Notes under the pieces: generated by a model | The model's database searches: none | Told to the model about the DNA's origin: nothing | The model's input: only the letters and a program-made list of their open reading frames with translations | Translations under genes and position numbers: made by a program | Origin: Guyparkeria hydrothermalis | Lineage (GTDB): Bacteria; Pseudomonadota; Gammaproteobacteria; Halothiobacillales; Halothiobacillaceae | Assembly (NCBI RefSeq): GCF_023555375.1 | Contig: NZ_JAJSEE010000001.1 | Coordinates: 372,001-436,000 of the forward strand | DNA: 64,000 bases | Direction of reading: 5' to 3' | In this document: piece by piece, positions 12,192 through 23,351 of the stretch | Layout: each line of letters starts with the position of its first letter | How positions within the stretch are numbered: position 1 is the stretch's first letter

Positions 12192-12282
12192 TGGCGGAGA
12201 GGGAGGGATTCGAACCCTCGGACCCCGAGAAGGGGTCAACGGTTTTCGAGACCGCCCCGTTCGACCGCTCCGGCACCTCTCC
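12192..12282 (-). tRNA. tRNA-Ser (anticodon CGA)
   Basis: 91 bases including an encoded CCA. The acceptor stem GGAGAGG/CCTCTCC, the anticodon loop CTCGAAA reading UCG codons, the long variable arm typical of tRNA-Ser and the T-loop GTTCGAATC are all visible on the minus strand. Confidence 0.97.
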
Positions 12283-12346
12283 AAACGGGAAGGATGCGAC
12301 AGCGGTCGCACCCACGCCCGGCGCGCAGGCCGGGCCACACAGAAAC

Positions 12347-12437
12347 TGGCGGAGAGAGAGGGATTCGAACCCTCGGTACGGGGTTACCGTACACACGCTT
12401 TCCAGGCGTGCTCCTTCGACCGCTCGGACACCTCTCC
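12347..12437 (-). tRNA. tRNA-Ser (anticodon GGA)
   Basis: 91 bases including an encoded CCA. Acceptor stem GGAGAGG/CCTCTCT-type, anticodon loop CTGGAAA (GGA, reading UCC and UCU), long variable arm and T-loop GTTCGAATC. It lies 64 bases upstream of the tRNA-Ser(CGA) gene on the same strand, so the two are probably co-transcribed. Confidence 0.97.
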
Positions 12438-12559: not shown

Positions 12560-13906
12560 TCACCCCGGCTCGAGCACCGCCATCGACTCCACGTGGGCGG
12601 TGTGCGGGAACATGTCCATCACGCCCGCAGCCAGCAGCCGCCAGCCATACTCGTGTACCAGCCGGCCCACGTCGCGGGCAAGCGAGCCCGGATGGCAGGA
12701 CACGTACACCACACGCTCCGGGCGCATGCGCGCGATCACGGGCATCATCGCCTCGGCCCCGGCCCGCGGCGGATCGAGCAGGATCCGCTCGAACGACTCG
12801 CCCAGCCAGCCATGCCCCGCGTGCGGCTCGAACAGGTTGCCGACCACGTGGCGGGTCGTCTCGATGCCGTTGTCACGCGCGCAGGCTGCACCGCGCTCGA
12901 CCATCGCCGCATCGGCCTCCACGGCGGTCACCGATCCCGCCGTCCCCGCCTTTCGGGCCAGCGGCAGGCTGAAGTTACCCAGTCCCGCGAACAGGTCCAG
13001 CACGCGATCACCCGGCTGCACCGCCAGCCAGTCGAGTACCTGGTGGACCATGCGCTGGTTGATATCGGCGTTGACCTGGGCGAAATCCAACGGTGAAAAG
13101 CGGATCTCGACGTCGAATTCGTTCAGGCGGTAGCTCGGGTAGACGTCGCGCGCGCCGGCCACCAGCGGCTCGAGCGTCTCCGGGCCGCCCGGTTGCAGGA
13201 AGACGGCGAAACCATGCGCGTCGGCAAAGGCATCCAGCCGCGCCCGATCGGCCTCGGTCAGCGGCACCATGTTCCGGAACGCCAGCGCGCAGTGCGTATC
13301 ACCACAACCCACCTCGATCTGGGGCAGGTCGCGCCGGGCATCCATCGCGCCGATCAACTCGGCGATGGCCGGCAGTTTCTCACCGACCCGCGGGTCGAGT
13401 ACCGGGCAGGTGTCGATGTCGGTGATCAGTGCCGAGCCGAGTTCGCGAAAACCCACCAGCGCCCGCCCCTTCTTGCGCACGTACCGCACGCCCAGACGGG
13501 CCATACGTCGGTACCCCCAGATCGGCCCGGTCAGCGGCGCGAGCACCTGCTCCGGCTCCACCCGGCCGATACGCGAGAGCTGATCGAGCAGGGCCTGCTG
13601 CTTGTGGGCCACCTGAGCCTCGGCCGCCAGGTGCTGCATGGCGCAGCCACCGCAGACGTGGAAATGCGGACACCCCGGCTCGATGCGCTCCGGGCTGGGC
13701 GTGTCCACGGCCACGGCATCCCCGAGGTCGAAATGCCGGCGCTGGTCGCGGTAGACAAAGCGCACGTCCTCGCCCGGCAGGGCCCGGCCGATGAAGGTGG
13801 CCTTGCCGTCGAGGTGGGCGACACCCCGGCCCTCCAGCGTCAGTGATTCGATATGGGCGGAAAACTCGCCCCGTGGAAGTTGCTTGATGCGCTTGCGTCG
13901 CGCCAT
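12560..13906 (-). CDS. rlmD: 23S rRNA (uracil-5-)-methyltransferase RlmD (RumA)
   Basis: SAM-dependent methylation of 23S rRNA at the position equivalent to U1939. The 448 residues comprise an N-terminal TRAM domain (about 10-65), the iron-sulfur cysteines CPHFHVCGGC (about 78-87) with a fourth Cys in DTCPVLDP near 160, the SAM motif LDLFAGLGNFSLPLA near 300, and the catalytic cysteine in VVYVSCHPGSLARD near 415. The protein length and four-cysteine cluster favour RlmD over TrmA or RlmC. In related genomes rlmD sits beside cysM and relA; relA is absent here and a small exported protein separates rlmD from cysM. Confidence 0.93.
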   Translation of the reverse strand: MARRKRIKQLPRGEFSAHIESLTLEGRGVAHLDGKATFIGRALPGEDVRFVYRDQRRHFDLGDAVAVDTPSPERIEPGCPHFHVCGGCAMQHLAAEAQVAHKQQALLDQLSRIGRVEPEQVLAPLTGPIWGYRRMARLGVRYVRKKGRALVGFRELGSALITDIDTCPVLDPRVGEKLPAIAELIGAMDARRDLPQIEVGCGDTHCALAFRNMVPLTEADRARLDAFADAHGFAVFLQPGGPETLEPLVAGARDVYPSYRLNEFDVEIRFSPLDFAQVNADINQRMVHQVLDWLAVQPGDRVLDLFAGLGNFSLPLARKAGTAGSVTAVEADAAMVERGAACARDNGIETTRHVVGNLFEPHAGHGWLGESFERILLDPPRAGAEAMMPVIARMRPERVVYVSCHPGSLARDVGRLVHEYGWRLLAAGVMDMFPHTAHVESMAVLEPG

Positions 13907-13956: not shown

Positions 13957-14328
13957 TCAGCGAGATTCGACCGGCGCACAGGGGCGCTGCAGGGCCGCTT
14001 CCAGGGCCCGGGCCCGCTTCGGCGGTCTCAGGGGGCTCCGGATTGTCCGCGGTGGCCGGTCCCGCAGGGCGTCACGCACCACGAAACGGGCGAACCATTC
14101 GCGACCGGCCCCGATATCGACCGGCCGCCCGGCGTTCGTTTCACGGGCCAGTTCACGTGCCGCCGACTCGGTGAGTCGGACATGCACCGACACCTCGTCT
14201 TCGGCCGGGACGAACCGGACGGCCTCCACCCGTTCGCGGCAGAGGTCGAATGCCAGCGGCGGCCCAGCCTGGGCGGGAGCCGCCAGGGCCACCGACAGCA
14301 AGACAGCGAGTGCGGCTGCCCGCATCAA
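13957..14328 (-). CDS. Small exported protein of unknown function
   Basis: 123 residues, with a clear signal peptide (about 1-21, MMRAAALAVLLSVALAAPAQA, cleaved after AQA) and a mature part with two cysteines (about 29 and 117) that could form a disulfide. The segment EVSVHVRLTESAARELARET resembles short accessory domains of SecD-type proteins, but this is only a weak likeness. The start overlaps the cysM stop by four bases (ATGA), so it is translated with cysM. No function can be assigned. Confidence 0.7.
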   Translation of the reverse strand: MMRAAALAVLLSVALAAPAQAGPPLAFDLCRERVEAVRFVPAEDEVSVHVRLTESAARELARETNAGRPVDIGAGREWFARFVVRDALRDRPPRTIRSPLRPPKRARALEAALQRPCAPVESR

Positions 14329-15227
14329 CCGGCAGGAAAGACGCCGGTGGATAGGTAGCGATCGCCCCGGTCGCAGACGATGGTGACGATCACCGCGTTC
14401 TCCACCTCGGCGGAGACCTTCAGCGCCGCGGCCATCGCCCCGCCCGAGGAAATCCCGGCCATGATGCCCTCCTCCCGGGCCAGCCGTCGGGTCATCTCCT
14501 CGGCCTCGTCCTGCTCGATGTCCAGGGTGCGATCGACACGGGCCGGCTCGAAGATGCTGGGCAGGTATTCCTTCGGCCAGCGGCGGATACCGGGAATCTG
14601 CGCCCCCTCGCCCGGCTGGACGCCGACGATCTGCACGTCGGGATTCTGCTCCTTGAGGTAATGCGAGGTGCCCATGATCGTGCCGGTGGTGCCCATGGCC
14701 GCAACGAAATGCGTCACCCGGCCCTCGGTGGCCGCCCAGATCTCCGGGCCGGTGGTCAGATAATGCGCGCGCGGGTTGTCGGGGTTGGCGAATTGGTCGA
14801 GCACGACGCCCTCACCGCCCGCGGCCATGGCCGCGGCGAGATCGCGCGCGCCCTCCATGCCCTCCTCGCGGGAGACCAGCTTGAGCTCCGCCCCGTAGGC
14901 GGCCATCGACTGGCGGCGTTCGATCGACATGTGCTCGGGCATGATCAGGGTCAGGCGCAAGCCCAGTGTCGCGGCCACCATCGCCAGCGCGATGCCGGTA
15001 TTGCCGGACGTGGCCTCGACCAATCGGTCACCGGGCTTGATCTCGCCGCGCTCCATGGCGCGCGAGATCATCGAGTGGGCGGCCCGGTCCTTCACCGACC
15101 CGGCGGGATTGTTTCCCTCGAGCTTGCCGAGGATCACGTTGCCGCGTGCCGCGCCGGTGGGGTCGAGGCGCTGGATTCGCGCCAGCGGCGTGTTGCCGAT
15201 CAATTGATCAAGACGGTGACCTAACAT
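14325..15227 (-). CDS. cysM: Cysteine synthase B
   Basis: PLP-dependent O-acetylserine sulfhydrylase that can use sulfide or thiosulfate. The 300-residue protein begins with LDQLIGNTPL and has the PLP lysine in GNNPAGSVKDRAA near residue 46, ATSGNTGIALA near 73, and the phosphate loop AMGTTGTIMG near 180. Its length and the RRWPKEYLPSIF segment are CysM rather than CysK features. It is divergent from the BarA-like gene, with 79 bases between them, and coupled to the small exported protein downstream. Confidence 0.93.
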   Translation of the reverse strand: MLGHRLDQLIGNTPLARIQRLDPTGAARGNVILGKLEGNNPAGSVKDRAAHSMISRAMERGEIKPGDRLVEATSGNTGIALAMVAATLGLRLTLIMPEHMSIERRQSMAAYGAELKLVSREEGMEGARDLAAAMAAGGEGVVLDQFANPDNPRAHYLTTGPEIWAATEGRVTHFVAAMGTTGTIMGTSHYLKEQNPDVQIVGVQPGEGAQIPGIRRWPKEYLPSIFEPARVDRTLDIEQDEAEEMTRRLAREEGIMAGISSGGAMAAALKVSAEVENAVIVTIVCDRGDRYLSTGVFPAG

Positions 15228-15306: not shown

Positions 15307-17607
15307 ATGCCACAAAGGCCTTCGGTGAACGCTTCGACCCGCAGAACACAACCCACGCCGAAAGCGGGCCGCACCGGCCGCCTGGCACCGCTGGTCGCCG
15401 GCGCGCCCCGGGTCGTGGTTGCGCTGGCCCTGCTCGCGCTTGCTGCCCCTCCGGTGTTGCTGGCCATCGAGGCATCCCTCGCCGGCCGCTCGCTGCCCTC
15501 GCCCGGGTTCTGGATGGTCACACTGGGCTGGGGGGCGACCTGGATCGTGCTCGTCGTGGCGGCCGCAGCGTTTTCCATGCGACGAGGCACGCCCTCACGG
15601 GAACCCAGAACCCCGGACGACACGCCGGCACAACCCCCGCGCCGGACCGGTGCGGAAAGCCAGCTCTCGGCCGCGTCGGTCCTTGAGCTGGTCAACCAGC
15701 AATGGGTGACCCCGCTGGGTCATATCCGCTCGGCGGTCGACTCGCTCGCCACCCTCGAGCGCCGGCTGAGCCGCTGTGCGCCCCCGGCCGAGCCCGGGCA
15801 GCAGGAGCCGGCCAAGTCGCTGCAGCTCATGCGCCACGCCAGTCACCGCCTGCGGATCTCGATCGAGAACATCATCGACTACCACGAGATCAACGCCGGA
15901 CGCATGACGCGCACCGACGGGCGGGTCAACCTGCGCACCACCGGCGAGGACCTGGTCACCGACTGGCAGACCACGGCCCAGCGCGACGGCGAGGTGCTGC
16001 AATTCATCGGCTACCAGGACCTGCCGCGCGAGATCGTCTTCGATCCGCAGATGCTGCGTCGCCTGCTCGACCGCCTGCTCAACGAGATCCTCTGCATCGC
16101 CCAGCTGCACGAGCCGGCCATCACCCTCGAGCTCGAGGACGATTTCGAGAACGACGGCGGCGATCGGATCGGGCGGTTTCGGCTGACCGTCGACGGCCAA
16201 CTCCGCGAGGGGTCGCTCGATCGCGAACAGCTCACCGAGCGCCTCGTCCAACCGCTCCCTGAAGGCCTCGAGGGGCTGTTGGTCGATGACCTGATCGATC
16301 TCTGGATCCTGCGCTGCATCTCGCATCACCTCGATTCGGCACTCGAGGTGGTCGAAACCACGCCCGATCGCTTCGGCATGACCGCCACCTTCAGCGCCCC
16401 CATCCTGATCGGCGAGCCCGACAGCAGCGACCGGCTGGCCGGCCAACTGATCGCGGTGGTCTGCGCCTCACCACAACATCGACGGGCCTGGCAGGGCAAT
16501 CTCGCCGCGCTCGGGGCGAGCATCCAGGTCGAGCCGGACTTCGGTCAGCCGGTCGACCTGCTGTTCATCGACGAGCGGATCGTCGAACGCCACCACGACG
16601 ACCCGGCATTCGGCCAGTGGGTATCGCTCGCCGGGCGCGTTATCGGCCTGTCCAGCCACCTGACCATCCGCGGGCGCCCGGCCGCCCCGCTGCACTGGGC
16701 CGACTTCACCCTGCCGCTGTTCATCCGCGCCCGAGCCCTGGCCGCCTCGCTGGAGCGCGTCCTGGGGGCCCCGGCACCCGGGCCGGGCCGCCGTCCGGCG
16801 CGATTGGCGCCACCGACGCAATCCCAACGGCCGACCGCCAGCACCGCGCCATCCCGTCCGGCCAAGGCCGGTCGACACGCCCTGTATTCGTTCGCCGGGC
16901 GCACCGCGCTGGTGATCGACGACGACCCGGTCTACCTGGCCCACCTCGGTCAGACGCTGCGTGAACTGGGCTTTCACGTCCTCGAGGCCACCAACGGCAA
17001 ACACGCGCTGGCCCTGGCCGACCACGAGGACATCGACGTGGTCTTCACCGACATGCACATGCCGGACATCACCGGCGCGGGCGTCGCCCGCATCCTCAAA
17101 AAGCGGCCGCGTCACCTCGAGACGCCCATCATCGCGATCACCGCAAACCGGCAGGGCAACGTCCACCAGGACCTGTTGCACAGCGGCATCGAGCGGGTGC
17201 TGACCAAGCCGGTGACCGCCGGCGACCTGCTGAGCGCGATCGGCGAATTCTTCCCGCTGGAAACGCACGGCCGCGTCGACCCGGAGGCCAGCCCCCCCGC
17301 CAACGGCGACCGCAAGGACGAGCGCGATCCCTTCCTGACCCGCCTGCTCTGTGACGAGCTGCCCGGGTACCGTCGCCTGCTGACCGAGCAGACCGAGGAC
17401 CGCGACGCGCTGCGCCATGCCGCGCACAAGCTCCGGGGCGCCGCCGCCTGCTGCCGGGAAACCGAACTACAGACCCTCGCCGGCGAGCTCGAGGACGCAC
17501 TGGACGCCAATGCCGATGCCAAACGGATCGACCCGCTGCTCGACTCGCTGATCGGCTGCATCGACGGCATCAACGCCAACCCCGTCTGCGACAGCGGCGC
17601 GTCCTGA
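15307..17607 (+). CDS. BarA/GacS-like hybrid sensor with a degenerate kinase core
   Basis: 766-residue membrane protein. Seen: two membrane helices (about 34-56 and 67-90) with only a short loop between them; a DHp-like region whose His is replaced by Gln (NQQWVTPLG, residue 131); a phosphorelay-like helix ending IENIIDYHEINAG; an ATPase-like fold in which the N-box reads DPQMLRRLLDRLLNEIL, with both usual Asn lost, and no glycine boxes; a degenerate receiver (about 378-490); an intact receiver (about 530-650) with Asp582, Thr and Lys634; and an HPt domain with His707 in HAAHKLRGAA. Its position next to cysM-rlmD is where GacS/BarA sits in relatives. Inference: it cannot autophosphorylate and may act as a phosphorelay or phosphate sink. 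Confidence 0.82.
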   Translation: MPQRPSVNASTRRTQPTPKAGRTGRLAPLVAGAPRVVVALALLALAAPPVLLAIEASLAGRSLPSPGFWMVTLGWGATWIVLVVAAAAFSMRRGTPSREPRTPDDTPAQPPRRTGAESQLSAASVLELVNQQWVTPLGHIRSAVDSLATLERRLSRCAPPAEPGQQEPAKSLQLMRHASHRLRISIENIIDYHEINAGRMTRTDGRVNLRTTGEDLVTDWQTTAQRDGEVLQFIGYQDLPREIVFDPQMLRRLLDRLLNEILCIAQLHEPAITLELEDDFENDGGDRIGRFRLTVDGQLREGSLDREQLTERLVQPLPEGLEGLLVDDLIDLWILRCISHHLDSALEVVETTPDRFGMTATFSAPILIGEPDSSDRLAGQLIAVVCASPQHRRAWQGNLAALGASIQVEPDFGQPVDLLFIDERIVERHHDDPAFGQWVSLAGRVIGLSSHLTIRGRPAAPLHWADFTLPLFIRARALAASLERVLGAPAPGPGRRPARLAPPTQSQRPTASTAPSRPAKAGRHALYSFAGRTALVIDDDPVYLAHLGQTLRELGFHVLEATNGKHALALADHEDIDVVFTDMHMPDITGAGVARILKKRPRHLETPIIAITANRQGNVHQDLLHSGIERVLTKPVTAGDLLSAIGEFFPLETHGRVDPEASPPANGDRKDERDPFLTRLLCDELPGYRRLLTEQTEDRDALRHAAHKLRGAAACCRETELQTLAGELEDALDANADAKRIDPLLDSLIGCIDGINANPVCDSGAS

Positions 17608-17729
17608 TCGCCCGCCGCGTATTTAAGGGAATCGTGATTCAGCTGGCCCGAATTCGCTGCTAGGATGCTGTGAGACAGATGTCACCCAGGGTCGGGTGGC
17701 CAACCGCAGGCAGGGAAGGAACAGGGACG

Positions 17730-19358
17730 ATGCAACTAGACAACGTCGCGGCGTATGGAGGGGCTGATTCGGGCATGGTCGTCTTTCTCTGCACTGCCTC
17801 CGGGCGCGTCCTGAGCGCCAGCCCCCGGGCCGAGGAGCTGTTCCCGGCCGATGGCGAGCAGACCCTCCGCGAACGCCTGGAAAGCCGCCTGCGACTGAAC
17901 ACCACCCCGTCGCTGGGCAGCGCGCTGATCGACGGCGAGGAAACCTCGCTGGTCGGCCTGATGGACAACCGCGAGATCACCCTCGGCGTCACCCCGCTGA
18001 ACGACCACCAGCGGATGGTGGTGATGATCGAGAGCCTCTGCCCGCCCACCAGTCTCGACTCGCTCACCGGCCTGCCGGACCGCAGCGCGATGCTCGAACG
18101 CATCCGCGAGATCCAGTCCGACGGGGAAGGCGGCCACCGCCTGATGCTGATCGACATCGACCGTCTCAAGACCGTCAACGACTACCTCGGCTATCACGTC
18201 GGCGATCGGGTGATCCGCGATCTTGCCGTCGCCATGCAGGCGGCCGTCCCCGACGACGTCATGGCCTCCCGCTGGAGCGGCCATGAATTCATGCTCCTGA
18301 TCCCGCCGCGCCAGGCCGAGCACAGCTCGCAGATCGCCGAGCGCATCCGCTCGGCCGCCGCCAGCGTACGCTTCAATGCCGGGGAAAAGGCCACCCAGCT
18401 GGGCACCGTCACCGTCAGCATCGGCCACGGCGCGCTCGGCCCCGGCGAGACCAGTCGCACCCAACCCCGCGACCAGCTCTCCTCCCTGAACGCGGCCGTC
18501 TACGAGGCCAAGCGCACCGGGCGCGACCGCGTGGTCAACGCCGACCGGTTGCAGCAACCGTCCGTCTACACCACGGGCGGGGCGCTCGACCGTGCCATCC
18601 ACGAGGGCCGCATCGTGGCCGCCAGTCAGCCGATCGTCGATCTCAAGACCGGCGAGGTGGTCGCCGACGAGGCACTGGCACGCATGATCACCCCCGAGGG
18701 CGACGTCATCCCCGCCGGGCTGTTCATCGAGGCCGCCTCGCGACTACAGATGGCCCATCGGATCGACTTCGAGATCATCAACCAGACGATTACCAACTGC
18801 GTGGCCTCGATCGATCACCGACCGATGGCGCACTTCGTCAATATCTCCGGGGACTTCCTGCAGCACCCGGAGCTGATGGAACAGGTGATCAGCAACGCCC
18901 GGGCCGCCTGCGAGTGCATCGGCGGTTCGGGCCAGGTGGAGGTCAAGCCGCTGGTCCTGGAGATGACCGAGCGCGAGGTGCTCGAGGACACTGCCGATGC
19001 CTTCAGTGCGCTCAAGCCATTGATCGATTTCGGTCTGCGCCTCGCCCTGGACGACTTCGGCAGCGGCTACTCCTCCTACCGCTACCTCCTCGACATGCCC
19101 TTCACCTTCCTCAAGATCGAGGGGGCGTTGGTGCAGAACATGAGCGAGAGCGTGCGCGCGCAGAAAATCGTCCAGCACATCCAGGCCATGGCGAAGGACA
19201 TGGGCCTGATCACGGTCGCCGAATTCATCGGCGACACGCGCACCGCCGACATGCTGCGCGAGATGGGAATCGACTGGGGACAGGGCTTCCATTTCGGCCG
19301 TCCGGAGATCATCCGCCCCCTGACGAACCACAACCGGGCCATGGTCCACGACATCTGA
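17730..19358 (+). CDS. GGDEF-EAL protein, probable c-di-GMP phosphodiesterase
   Basis: 542-residue soluble protein. A PAS-like N-terminus (about 8-105, VFLCTASGRVLSASPRAEELF) is followed by a GGDEF domain (about 108-270) whose signature is SGHEF instead of GGDEF, so cyclase activity is unlikely. The EAL domain (about 288-535) keeps Glu-Ala-Leu at 314-316, VNISG, EMTE, DDFGSGYSS (Asp441-Asp442) and QGFHFGRP; the usual LKIDG reads LKIEG. The metal-binding set looks complete, so phosphodiesterase activity is likely. The start at 17730 follows GGAACAGGGACG. It lies 122 bases downstream of the BarA-like gene on the same strand. Confidence 0.88.
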   Translation: MQLDNVAAYGGADSGMVVFLCTASGRVLSASPRAEELFPADGEQTLRERLESRLRLNTTPSLGSALIDGEETSLVGLMDNREITLGVTPLNDHQRMVVMIESLCPPTSLDSLTGLPDRSAMLERIREIQSDGEGGHRLMLIDIDRLKTVNDYLGYHVGDRVIRDLAVAMQAAVPDDVMASRWSGHEFMLLIPPRQAEHSSQIAERIRSAAASVRFNAGEKATQLGTVTVSIGHGALGPGETSRTQPRDQLSSLNAAVYEAKRTGRDRVVNADRLQQPSVYTTGGALDRAIHEGRIVAASQPIVDLKTGEVVADEALARMITPEGDVIPAGLFIEAASRLQMAHRIDFEIINQTITNCVASIDHRPMAHFVNISGDFLQHPELMEQVISNARAACECIGGSGQVEVKPLVLEMTEREVLEDTADAFSALKPLIDFGLRLALDDFGSGYSSYRYLLDMPFTFLKIEGALVQNMSESVRAQKIVQHIQAMAKDMGLITVAEFIGDTRTADMLREMGIDWGQGFHFGRPEIIRPLTNHNRAMVHDI

Positions 19359-19420: not shown

Positions 19421-19497
19421 CGGAGTGTAGCGCAGCCTGGTAGCGCACCTGCATGGGGTGCAGGTGGTCGGGGGTTCAAATCCCTCCACTCCGACCA
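19421..19497 (+). tRNA. tRNA-Pro (anticodon GGG)
   Basis: 77 bases with encoded CCA. Acceptor stem CGGAGTG/CACTCCG, anticodon stem CCTGC/GCAGG with loop ATGGGGT, and T-loop GTTCAAATC are all present. It reads CCC and CCU codons. Confidence 0.97.
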
Positions 19498-19586: not shown

Positions 19587-20999
19587 TCAGGGAGCGGACG
19601 CGGCAGCCGACCGCGGTAGGGTGACGTGAAATCGAGTTCGACGCCCGAGCGAGTCAGCAGCAATCTCCCCGTCATGCGCGTGAATGATGGCCCTCGTGAT
19701 CGCCAGACCCAACCCCAGCCCGCCGGTGGTACTCCCATGGCGAGGCCTTGCCGCCTCGGCCCGATAAAACCGATCGAAGATCATGGGCAGCTCCGATGGC
19801 GGAATGGGATCACCGGTGTTCTCGACGATCAGGGATACGGTTTTCGATTGTTCCGCGATAGTAATCCGCACCTCACCGCCCTCTCCCGCATGGCGGATGG
19901 CATTGGAGAGCAAGTTGCTGAATGCACGCCGCAACATCAGGCGGTTCCCGCGGACCGAGGCCTGGCCCGACGCCTGCAAACGAACGCCCTCCTCCTCGGC
20001 CAACGCGTCATAAAACTCCAGCAGGTCAGCAATCTCGTCGTGCAGGCGAATCTCTTGAATCGACGGCAAGGAGAGGCCGTTGTCCGCCTGAGCCAGGAAC
20101 AGCATGTCGGCGATCATGCGCGAGAGCCGATCAAGCTCCTCGGCGCTGGAGGCAAGCGTTTCCTGGTACTCGTGTTGAGTCCGCGATCGCGACAGGGCGA
20201 CCTGGGTCTGGGTGAGCAGGTTGCTCACCGGCGTTCGCATCTCGTGGGCCAGGTCCGAGGAGAAGTTCGACAATCGCCGGAACGCCTCCTCCAAGCGAAC
20301 CAGCATGCAATTGAGTTCGTGGGCAAGCCCCCTGAGCTCCCGGGGTACCGACTCCTCCGGCAAACGGCAGTCGAGCTGCGAGGCGGTGACCGAGGCCGCA
20401 CGCTGCTGTAGCAAGCGAAGCGGTGAAAGCCCACGCCGCGATGCCCACCAGCCCAACAGACCACTGAGAAACGCCGCCACCGGAATGAACACGCTCAACG
20501 TCCGACCATAGCGCTCCATGAACCGCTCGTGGTGATCGATATTGATCGCCACCACCACGAGAAACGGCGTGAGATCCGACAAGGCCGTCTGCATGGTCGT
20601 GGCAAGCCCGCGGTAACGCGAGTCACCCTCACTCCAGGCGAACAGCACATCGGCTTGCTCGACCTGTTTCCGGTTGATCGCCTGATCGGGGAACGACAAG
20701 TCGGGCGGCGCGAGAATGGTCGAGCCACCGTCGGTTCGAACGAACACCTTGAGCTTCGGGTCGCTACGGAACATGTCGAGCACCGCCTCATCCAGCGCCT
20801 GCAGTTCCTGCGCGTCGGGCGGGCTGGCCAGCAACCGCTCCAGCACCTCGACCTTGCCCTCGAGAAGGCTGCGATCCATCTCGATGAAGTGACGTTCGAC
20901 CGCGGCATTGAGCAGCCAGCCAAGGCCGATCAACACCGAAGACGACAGCAGGACGAACAGCAGTGTCAGCCGGGCGGTGAGGGAGAGGGCCAATTTCAT
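19587..20999 (-). CDS. copS: Heavy-metal sensor histidine kinase (CusS/CopS type)
   Basis: Inner-membrane sensor of 470 residues. Membrane helices at about 8-30 and 165-187 enclose a periplasmic sensor region. HAMP (about 188-240) is followed by the H-box [16 protein letters not shown] near residue 250, the N-box [15 protein letters not shown] near 365, and the G-boxes ENTGDPI and [11 protein letters not shown] near 435. All catalytic residues are present. It overlaps copR by four bases, and the pair is divergent from the multicopper oxidase genes, so periplasmic copper is the probable signal (inference from context). Confidence 0.9.
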
Positions 21000-21679
21000 G
21001 CCTCGGGCTCGTCTTCCATGACGTAGCCCATGCCCCGCACCGTTCGAATCAATCGGCGTTCAAATGGCTCGTCGACCTTGCGACGAAGCCGGCGGACGGC
21101 CACCTCAACCACGTTGGTGTCGCTGTCGAAGTTCATGTCCCAGACCTGGGAGGCGATCAGCGAGCGCGGCAACACCTCGCCTTTTCGACGCATGAAAAGC
21201 TCCAGCAGGGCGAATTCCTTTGCCGTCAGATCGATTCGCTCTCCGGCCCGTGTGGCCCGGTGGCCGAGGCGGTCGAGCTCGAGGTCGGCCACGCGCAGGG
21301 TGGTCGGTTCGGGTTCTGCCCGACCACGACGCAAAAGGGTGCGCACGCGGGCCAGCAATTCCGAGAAGGCGAACGGCTTGATCAGGTAATCGTCGGCACC
21401 CAGATCGAGGCCTCGCACGCGATCCTCGACCTGGTCCTTCGCGGTGAGCAGAAGAATCGGCATGTCTCGACCGTTCCGACGCAGGGTCTCCAGCACCTGC
21501 CACCCATCCATGCCGGGGAGCATGACGTCCAGCAGCATCAAATCGAAGGGCTCGGTAAGCGCCAGATGCAGCCCCTCGACACCATCCGGCGACAGGTCGA
21601 CGGTATACCCAGCTTCGGTCAGACCCTGCTGCAGGTACTGGCCCGTTTTGCTCTCGTCTTCGACGATCAACACCTTCAT
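20996..21679 (-). CDS. copR: Heavy-metal response regulator (CusR/CopR type)
   Basis: OmpR-class response regulator of 227 residues. The receiver (1-118) has acidic Glu-Asp near residues 7-8, the phospho-Asp in [14 protein letters not shown] near 51, Thr in LLLTAKD and Lys in YLIKPFAF. The winged-helix DNA-binding domain spans about 128-222 ([19 protein letters not shown] and [14 protein letters not shown]). It probably binds the two inverted repeats described at 21739 and 23775, activates the copper genes and autoregulates. Confidence 0.92.
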
Positions 21680-21793: not shown

Positions 21794-21848
21794 CGTGGGC
21801 AAGTCGTTAAAAGTCATCCCGACAGGCGAACCAAGGGAGCACTCAACA

Positions 21849-23351
21849 ATGGATCGACGTCGTTTCTTGAAGCACAGCGTCGCGGTGGCCGCCACGGCAA
21901 GCCTGGGCTCGATTACCGCGCAACCCGCCCGGGCGGCCAGCCGCAACCGTCCCACCCTACCGATGCCCGAGGTCCTCGACGTCACCCAGAGCGGGCGTCT
22001 GGAACTGACGGCCCAGGCCGGCAAAACGGTGTTCGCAGGCGGATCGTCCTCACCGACGCTCGGCTACAACCAGGGTTACCTTGGCCCGTTCGTCCGTGCA
22101 CGCCAGGGCCAGGAGGTCGCCGTCCGGCTGCAGAACGATCTCGACGAGCCACTCGCCACTCACTGGCATGGCCTGCTCGTCCCCGGGGAGGTCGATGGCG
22201 GCCCTCACCAAGCGATCGACCCCGGCAAGGTGTGGGAGCCGATCCTGCCGATCGACCAGCCGGCATCGACGGCGTGGTTTCACGCCCATACCTTCCCGCA
22301 TACGGCTCGCCAGGTCTACGCGGGCCTGGCCGGGGTGTTCCAGATCGACGATGGACTTGATGCCGACCGGGGCGTGCCTCACGAACACGGTGTCGATGAC
22401 CTGACGCTGGTGATCCAGGACCGACGCCTCGACGATGCCGGTCGACTGGATTACCGGCTGAGCATGTTCGATCGCATGCACGGCTTCCAGGGTGACCGCC
22501 TGTTCGTCAACGGCGCAGAACAACCCCGTAGCCCGGTGCCGAACTCCATCGTCCGGTTACGCCTGCTCAACGGCTCGAATGCCCGCATCTTCCACCTGCG
22601 CTTCGAGGACGGGCGCCCGATGCATGTGATCGCGGGCGACGCCGGGTTCTGGCCCAAGCCGGTGGCCACCGACGAGCTGCGCCTGTCACCGGGCGAACGC
22701 TTCGAGGTACTGGTGGATTTCCGCGACGGGCGCGAGGTGGCGCTGATCACCGGCCCGGATCAAAATCGGGGCGGCCCCGGCATGATGGGGATGATGAGCA
22801 ACATCCGCTCGTTTGCCTCCGGGCTGGTCGAAGGCGACCAACGGGTGCTGTCGTTCCACCCGGATGACCGCAAGGGTCGGGTGGATCGTCTCCCGGAGGC
22901 CACTGGTGACTCCCTGCCATCGCGGCCGACAACCTTCGATCGTCGACGCCACTTCCGCCTCGACATGATGCTCGGTGGCATGCCGATGATGCGAGGCATG
23001 ATGGGCGACGGCTCCGGCCCCTCCATGGGGATCAACGGCCAGCCGTTCGATCCGCATCGCATTAACGAGGACGTCGCGCTCGGCACCATCGAACACTGGA
23101 CCATCGAGAGCGACATGCTGATGCACCCGTTCCACATCCATGGCGTGCATTTCCAAGTGCTGACCGACGAGACGGGGCAGTCGCCCCGGCTGGAAAATCG
23201 AGGCGCGAAGGACACCCTGCTGGTCGATGGCCGGGCAGAGATCGCGGTGCGTTTTACCCAGCCGGCCGGCAAGGACACCCCGTTCATGTACCACTGCCAC
23301 ATCCTCGAACACGAGGATGCCGGGATGATGGGTCATTTCACGGTTTCCTGA
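21849..23351 (+). CDS. Tat-exported multicopper oxidase (CueO-like)
   Basis: 500-residue periplasmic copper oxidase that probably oxidises Cu(I). The start MDRRRFLKHS gives a twin-arginine signal peptide (about 1-33); the in-frame ATG at 21795 would bury it. All four copper motifs are visible: THWHGLLVPG, WFHAHTFPH, MHPFHIHGVHF and YHCHILEHEDAGMMGHF. Two methionine-rich stretches (MMGMMSN near 318 and MMLGGMPMMRGMMGDG near 375) resemble the copper-binding inserts of CueO. It is a shorter protein than the CopA-type oxidase 1 kb downstream. Confidence 0.9.
   Translation: MDRRRFLKHSVAVAATASLGSITAQPARAASRNRPTLPMPEVLDVTQSGRLELTAQAGKTVFAGGSSSPTLGYNQGYLGPFVRARQGQEVAVRLQNDLDEPLATHWHGLLVPGEVDGGPHQAIDPGKVWEPILPIDQPASTAWFHAHTFPHTARQVYAGLAGVFQIDDGLDADRGVPHEHGVDDLTLVIQDRRLDDAGRLDYRLSMFDRMHGFQGDRLFVNGAEQPRSPVPNSIVRLRLLNGSNARIFHLRFEDGRPMHVIAGDAGFWPKPVATDELRLSPGERFEVLVDFRDGREVALITGPDQNRGGPGMMGMMSNIRSFASGLVEGDQRVLSFHPDDRKGRVDRLPEATGDSLPSRPTTFDRRRHFRLDMMLGGMPMMRGMMGDGSGPSMGINGQPFDPHRINEDVALGTIEHWTIESDMLMHPFHIHGVHFQVLTDETGQSPRLENRGAKDTLLVDGRAEIAVRFTQPAGKDTPFMYHCHILEHEDAGMMGHFTVS

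Follow-up and report, generated by a model that had tools for sequence, protein, structure and literature searches.

A stretch of 64,000 nucleotides from Guyparkeria hydrothermalis (contig NZ_JAJSEE010000001.1, positions 372,001 to 436,000 of the forward strand; hereafter the window) carries an uninterrupted open reading frame (ORF) at 15307-17607 on the plus strand, at exactly the coordinates of the original prediction, which encodes a protein of 766 amino acids. Comparison of this protein, here called pseudo-GacS, with its relatives indicates that it is GacS/BarA by descent and that it has lost the kinase chemistry while retaining the receiver and the HPt domain, a combination common to two genera. 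In textbook accounts the Gac-Csr cascade starts with GacS/BarA; here the entry kinase appears to be dead, while the receiver, the HPt domain, GacA and mostly CsrA (12 of 13 genomes) are still in place. The protein probably works as a phosphorelay hub that passes externally derived phosphate to or from GacA, like RcsD.

Residues of the kinase, receiver and HPt domains

Histidine kinases are described by their H, N and G boxes. In alignments with E. coli BarA and gammaproteobacterial GacS-type proteins, the segment NQQWVTPL (residues 130-137) aligned with SHE(I/L)RTP(L/M), and Gln131 occupied the position of the phospho-accepting His (BarA H302), as had been proposed. Gln was found at this site in 20/20 orthologues from both genera, which argues against a local defect, and His in all of the 8 intact GacS/BarA-type proteins chosen by hand for comparison. 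The next residue is Gln in the 10 orthologues of the window's genus, and His in 9 and Asn in 1 of the second genus. N130, Q131, W133 and TPLGHIR (135-141) were invariant across a 16-sequence alignment.

BarA N415 and N419 of the N box correspond to Arg256 and Glu260. The replacement of both Asn residues was therefore confirmed for the window protein but does not extend to the second genus, in which all 10 orthologues keep the first Asn; the loss of the N box thus went further in the window's genus. The DxGxG and GxGxGL boxes had no counterpart in the alignments as judged by eye, in line with the expected loss of the glycine boxes. D296 was considered as a remnant of the G1-box Asp and dropped, as its placement shifted between alignments. 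With these residues missing, pseudo-GacS is predicted to be unable to autophosphorylate. The phosphotransfer residues of the last receiver and the HPt domain had been described as intact, and indeed D582, K634 and H707 align with BarA D718, K770 and H861 and are conserved in 20/20 orthologues.

Only the receiver (535-645, 8.8e-24) and the HPt domain (681-753, 3.4e-08) exceeded the Pfam cut-offs, and the same scan gave no match to HisKA, HATPase_c or HAMP. The best NCBIfam match is BarA, which covers the receiver-HPt part only and, with 93.4 bits against a cut-off of 890, misses the equivalog threshold. At the N-terminus, two helices (2-27 and 34-61 of a modelled fragment starting at residue 33) were assigned without a membrane predictor as putative membrane helices. 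They are joined by merely a short loop in the model, so a periplasmic sensor domain appears to be absent. The layout of a GacS/BarA hybrid, first described as full, is therefore retained in part: the DHp, ATPase, receivers and HPt follow in order, but HAMP and the periplasmic domain are missing and the first receiver is degenerate.

Modelled fold of the kinase part

The model of the DHp-CA part (residues 115-376) had a mean predicted local distance difference test score (pLDDT) of 79. Foldseek placed RetS first (6.6e-12) and GacS (7z8n) next (1.7e-11), with template modelling scores of about 0.5. VIA-align, whose coverage starts at about model residue 20 and thus just past the Gln131 site, ranked GacS first (Z 18.3, 212 aligned, root-mean-square deviation 4.7); DivL tied with it (Z 17.7), and RetS had Z 15.5. 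A profile search of the PDB sequences also returned GacS 7z8n at 1e-05 and RetS at about 3e-04. In Foldseek, ShkA was the best match of the whole-protein model (pLDDT 69.9, predicted template modelling score 0.46), at 1.9e-16 over 544 columns, ahead of RetS and GacS. These matches to GacS, RetS, DivL and ShkA suggest that the kinase fold has been kept although the active-site motifs are lost.

Distribution and descent

Near-full-length orthologues were searched for in 57 genomes. They were detected in 10 of the 11 genomes of the window's genus, counting the window's own (the eleventh genome is 64% complete). A second genus of the same family had one in all of its 10 genomes, with identities of about 36-40%. 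By their labels the two genera are Guyparkeria and Halothiobacillus; labels are mixed in the window's genus (3 Guyparkeria, 3 Halothiobacillus, 1 Halothiobacillaceae), for which the name Guyparkeria is our assignment. In a scan of named genomes, 15 loci were recovered, all among the same 20 genomes; 10 carry the label Halothiobacillus, 3 Guyparkeria, 1 Halothiobacillaceae and 1 Proteobacteria.

The gene place agrees with the usual position beside cysM-rlmD that had been noted, and both neighbours exceed their NCBIfam equivalog cut-offs. A divergent cysM lies beside the pseudo-GacS gene in 20/20 loci, and in the window's genus rlmD adjoins cysM at all 10 loci; the 18 kb around the gene in G013 of the second genus gave no rlmD match. 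In G011, from a third genus of the family, the corresponding position beside cysM-rlmD is occupied by an intact GacS with the kinase motifs SHEIRTP, NLLGNAIRY, DTGPGL and VGLGL. Intact GacS also adjoins cysM-rlmD in G027 and cysM in G033; in E. coli, barA and rlmD are divergently arranged. In the fourth genus, cysM and rlmD are present and a GacS match was absent from the stretches examined (5 genomes; the G018 stretch is 3.7 kb); three of four genomes searched gave no UvrY match at 1e-15, and the UvrY match in the other adjoins another hybrid kinase.

In a tree of the receiver-HPt part, all 20 pseudo-GacS sequences formed one clade (99/99) with the intact GacS of G011 next to it (98/96), on long branches. 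Because of the fold, this tree and the intact GacS of G011, we regard pseudo-GacS as an orthologue of GacS. A CysM tree of 21 rows (four of 10 from each of the two genera, the third genus, four of the fourth and 8 others) had one starred split (98/96), which separated the two pseudo-GacS genera plus G033, on a very long branch, from the third and fourth genera and other families. As it is unrooted, it neither shows nor refutes a loss inside one family. Apparently the entry kinase was lost once in the two genera.

Constraint on the coding sequence

The ratio of nonsynonymous to synonymous substitution rates (dN/dS) was estimated from six pairs in the window's genus, with the window sequence as a member of five; synonymous rates (dS) were mostly 0.4-1.5, so the values are rough. 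The ratio was 0.07-0.15 for the pseudo-DHp, 0.11-0.20 for the pseudo-CA, 0.04-0.13 for the degenerate first receiver, 0.01-0.06 for the intact receiver and 0.07-0.13 for the HPt domain. The N-terminal part and linker reached 0.48-0.68, and two short linkers 0.15-0.74. Purifying selection acts on the dead kinase domains. The far weaker constraint on the N-terminal membrane part fits a loss of sensing. The degenerate first receiver had a dN/dS below that of the HPt domain in 6/6 pairs; it keeps Asp422 in 20/20 orthologues, and R457, P458 and W464 are invariant.

GacA, CsrA and HPt proteins

The search for a UvrY/GacA homologue, suggested in the original prediction, covered 30 genomes and succeeded in each of the 13 that carry pseudo-GacS. 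The gene adjoins uvrC as in E. coli, and D54 and K104 are kept (11/11 loci fetched). CsrA was found in all but one of the 13. The window's genome (G000), G005, G009 and G015 have five HPt matches each, one in pseudo-GacS and four in two chemotaxis-type ORFs of about 700 and 2,200 amino acids with HATPase also present, which from their size and domain co-location we take to be CheA and ChpA. Pseudo-GacS is the sole HPt protein outside such ORFs in 4/5 genomes inventoried.

Output was assessed with a scan for the canonical GacA box in 27 genomes, including 13 with pseudo-GacS, allowing one mismatch and with a control. The window's own genome gave no box at this setting. Single matches occurred in G002, G008, G009, G013 and G017, and control matches in G005, G010, G013, G015 and G017. 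G011, with its intact GacS, had 3 matches, one exact and two with one mismatch, and zero control matches. The exact box in G011, the only family genome shown with an intact GacS beside cysM, lies at C96:139538-139555. The box may have drifted or gone in the pseudo-GacS genera, with a changed output as well; if anything, the result counts against an unchanged output.

Possible sources of phosphate

If the kinase chemistry is lost, as the residues suggest, the switch must draw its phosphate from elsewhere. The window's genome has 15 HATPase matches, comprising 9 histidine kinases and 6 others that from their position and size are presumably chemotaxis or housekeeping ATPases. For 8 of the 9 kinases, a receiver match lies no more than about 2 kb away. 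The ninth, at C4:268939-271692, is an orphan hybrid with 7TMR-DISM, HisKA, HATPase and receiver domains and no HPt, a layout that we take to be LadS/RetS-like; about 130 further C-terminal residues of it have no Pfam match. The best BarA equivalog match in this genome (1.6e-38) falls on its kinase part. A second GacS, for which a search had been proposed, was not found in the window's genome, nor was any other hybrid kinase bearing an HPt domain. Elsewhere, at least three hybrid kinases of G015 carry a receiver but lack an HPt. Acetate kinase was matched in 10/12 family genomes searched and in 8/10 of those with pseudo-GacS.

External charging of such proteins has precedents. According to PMC4866733, P. 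aeruginosa LadS phosphorylates the GacS HPt domain via LadS H1-D1, and the phosphate goes onward to GacA; in a gacS strain with the H1 His changed to Gln, output is reduced and LadS-dependent output persists. PMC4734776 describes BarA H302A and G2-box mutants that accept the phosphate of acetyl phosphate on D718.

A proposed relay supplied from outside

The original prediction had offered a phosphorelay hub or phosphatase fed by another kinase. The loss of kinase residues with a receiver and HPt domain kept under selection bears out its premise, and a hub of this kind, or a phosphatase, is the best reading of what the protein probably does. In this mechanism a Guyparkeria-type sulphur oxidiser would carry a gacS/barA orthologue that descent has converted to a kinase-dead phosphotransfer protein. 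Phosphate could enter on the receiver at Asp582, charged by another histidine kinase or acetyl phosphate, or on the HPt domain at His707, charged directly from a hybrid kinase's receiver, the route that LadS takes to GacS in P. aeruginosa. It would then move on to Asp54 of GacA, which is still present along with CsrA, and the same chain run in reverse would dephosphorylate GacA. The dead DHp-ATPase part may be retained as a dimerisation and docking scaffold. Descent, the loss of kinase residues, the retention of receiver, HPt and GacA and the selection can be read from the sequences; phosphotransfer, its direction, the donor and the scaffold role we infer.

Several observations weigh against this mechanism. 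Confidence in the DHp-CA model falls below a pLDDT of 50 around Gln131. Only 2/11 cysM stretches from other families had a BarA match (G040 and G047), about 3 kb off, so the gene place is not general beyond the family. G013 has 10 HPt matches, four of them in other hybrid kinases, and G007 and G008 carry other ORFs with both HATPase and receiver matches. A conserved canonical GacA box was not detected in either genus, and the output branch is therefore unproven. Above all, no donor common to all pseudo-GacS genomes was found. The LadS/RetS-like hybrid occurred in 3/20 of them (all 20 searched), all 3 in the window's genus, which rules it out as a general donor. G005, a single contig that is 99% complete, has 8 histidine kinases, none with a receiver or HPt (6 by Pfam, 2 by ORF reading); every one of them has a receiver match at most about 2 kb away, which leaves no apparent orphan. 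In G015 and in G010, a 94% complete draft, acetate kinase was unmatched, which weakens acetyl phosphate as a general donor, although other sources of acetyl phosphate were not searched. The donors therefore seem to vary between strains or to be unspecialised. A tentative extension, which we hold possible but doubtful, is that a single ancestral loss left a general-purpose HPt hub with no dedicated Gac kinase, so that GacA sums a strain-specific flow from hybrid kinases or acetyl phosphate. The input to CsrA in Guyparkeria and Halothiobacillus would then be metabolic instead of sensory.

Other explanations account for parts of these data. Pseudo-GacS might act as a phosphate sink only: GacA would receive its phosphate from a non-cognate kinase or from acetyl phosphate and be drained from Asp54 to His707 to Asp582 and then to inorganic phosphate. 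Reverse relay of this kind runs through ArcB and RcsD. The intact receiver and HPt domain in every orthologue, the frequency of acetate kinase in the family and the lack of any hybrid kinase found in G005 all agree with such a drain. As the same enzyme is unmatched in G015 and G010 and the direction of a relay is not readable from sequence, we consider a pure sink rather unlikely. It is more improbable still that the dead DHp-ATPase part serves chiefly to pair with another histidine kinase and alter its activity, with the relay residues secondary. RetS with GacS and DivL, which is His-less, with CckA are precedents for docking of this sort; both RetS and DivL are among the nearest folds, and the dead domains are strongly conserved. 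However, the receiver is the most constrained part of the protein, the relay residues are kept throughout, and no candidate partner was found in all genomes.

A cryptic kinase, in which the phospho-acceptor has moved to His139 or nucleotide is held at an unusual site, is very unlikely. His139, eight residues past the lost His, is present in 20/20 orthologues, whereas the 8 intact proteins have Gly, Ser, Ala or Thr there, and the ATPase fold is retained in the model; the N box and glycine boxes are lost, however, and Pfam recognises neither HATPase nor HisKA. A decaying gene or a sequencing error, for which nothing speaks apart from the lost residues themselves, is refuted by the identical change in all orthologues of two genera this divergent and by dN/dS well under 1. 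The phosphorelay hub remains the preferred reading.

Genes around pseudo-GacS

The features of the region are listed in Table 1. A GGDEF-EAL gene directly follows pseudo-GacS in all of the orthologous loci. Its GGDEF site reads SGHEF in 20/20, and a simple EAL pattern was matched in 8/20; no match to the protein was found in about 1.2 kb behind the intact GacS of G011. The two genes form a conserved pair, perhaps with a link to cyclic di-GMP.

Table 1. Pseudo-GacS, its predicted domains and adjacent genes in the window
Feature	Position	Strand	Description	Basis
Pseudo-GacS	15307..17607	+	Predicted kinase-dead GacS/BarA orthologue, 766 aa	NCBIfam, alignments
N-terminal helices	15406..15585	+	Residues 34-93; two helices and short loop	Model, Pfam
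Pseudo-DHp	15652..15912	+	Residues 116-202; Gln131 at His site	Alignments
Pseudo-ATPase (CA)	15913..16434	+	Residues 203-376; fold kept in model, N and G boxes lost	
Degenerate first receiver	16435..16770	+	Residues 377-488; strongly conserved, without Pfam match	
Intact receiver	16888..17256	+	Residues 528-650; D538/D539, D582, T612, K634	Pfam, alignment
HPt domain	17323..17574	+	Residues 673-756; His707	Pfam Hpt 3.4e-08, alignment
GGDEF-EAL protein	17670..19358	+	Directly downstream of pseudo-GacS	Neighbour in 20/20 orthologous loci
cysM	14325..15227	-	Divergent neighbour of pseudo-GacS	NCBIfam equivalog cut-off exceeded
rlmD	12560..13906	-		NCBIfam equivalog cut-off exceeded

Between rlmD and cysM lies a small ORF (13957-14328, minus strand) without a Pfam match; tblastn at 1e-8 matched only the window's own locus, the rlmD-cysM gap being visible in 10 loci of the genus. 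Further downstream, the segments at 19587-21679 (minus) and 21795-23351 (plus) comprise a CusS-type sensor kinase and a response regulator with, beside them, a multicopper-oxidase-like ORF recognised by eye. Two tRNA-Ser (cga, gga) and one tRNA-Pro (ggg) at 12192-12437 (minus) and 19421-19497 (plus) flank the region.

Relation to known systems

With pseudo-GacS, nature provides a test case for the degree to which a phosphorelay can be uncoupled from its own kinase. The hosts are sulphur-oxidising autotrophs, which makes the input to the global switch in these cells a question that can be posed concretely, and the intact GacS in the third genus of the family provides a natural control. In the open-access literature searched, we found no description of a kinase-dead GacS of this type.

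Pseudo-GacS shares with GacS/BarA the gene place beside cysM-rlmD, the cytoplasmic domain order, the DHp-CA fold, the receiver, the HPt domain and the GacA partner. It differs in that the phospho-accepting His, the ATP-binding boxes, the periplasmic sensor and HAMP are missing. As it fails the kinase features that define GacS, the sequence argues that it should not be filed as a GacS kinase, though it is GacS by descent.

Among the fold neighbours of the dead kinase part, DivL and RetS are not known to have an HPt domain, unlike pseudo-GacS. ShkA, the best match of the whole model, has the same order of DHp-CA, pseudoreceiver and receiver, and its matched chain is not known to have an HPt. However, ShkA was solved with AMPPNP according to the structure title and hence binds nucleotide, and the matched chain has 463 residues. 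The gacS H1 His-to-Gln allele of P. aeruginosa likewise carries Gln in place of the phospho-accepting His and has its HPt domain in use, as described in PMC4866733; that allele is laboratory-made with ATPase and sensor intact, whereas in pseudo-GacS the change is natural and the ATPase also appears to be lost.

The closest parallel in working is RcsD, which PMC13317618 (a preprint) and PMC7418988 present as a membrane-anchored protein with an inactive histidine-kinase domain and a C-terminal HPt domain. From sequence and model, pseudo-GacS is likewise predicted to be membrane-bound, with a dead kinase domain and intact HPt residues. RcsD, however, has periplasmic and ABL domains and RcsC as its donor, whereas pseudo-GacS has an intact receiver before the HPt domain. 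Pseudo-GacS is thus RcsD-like in its working at most, and its gene place and fold indicate descent from GacS.

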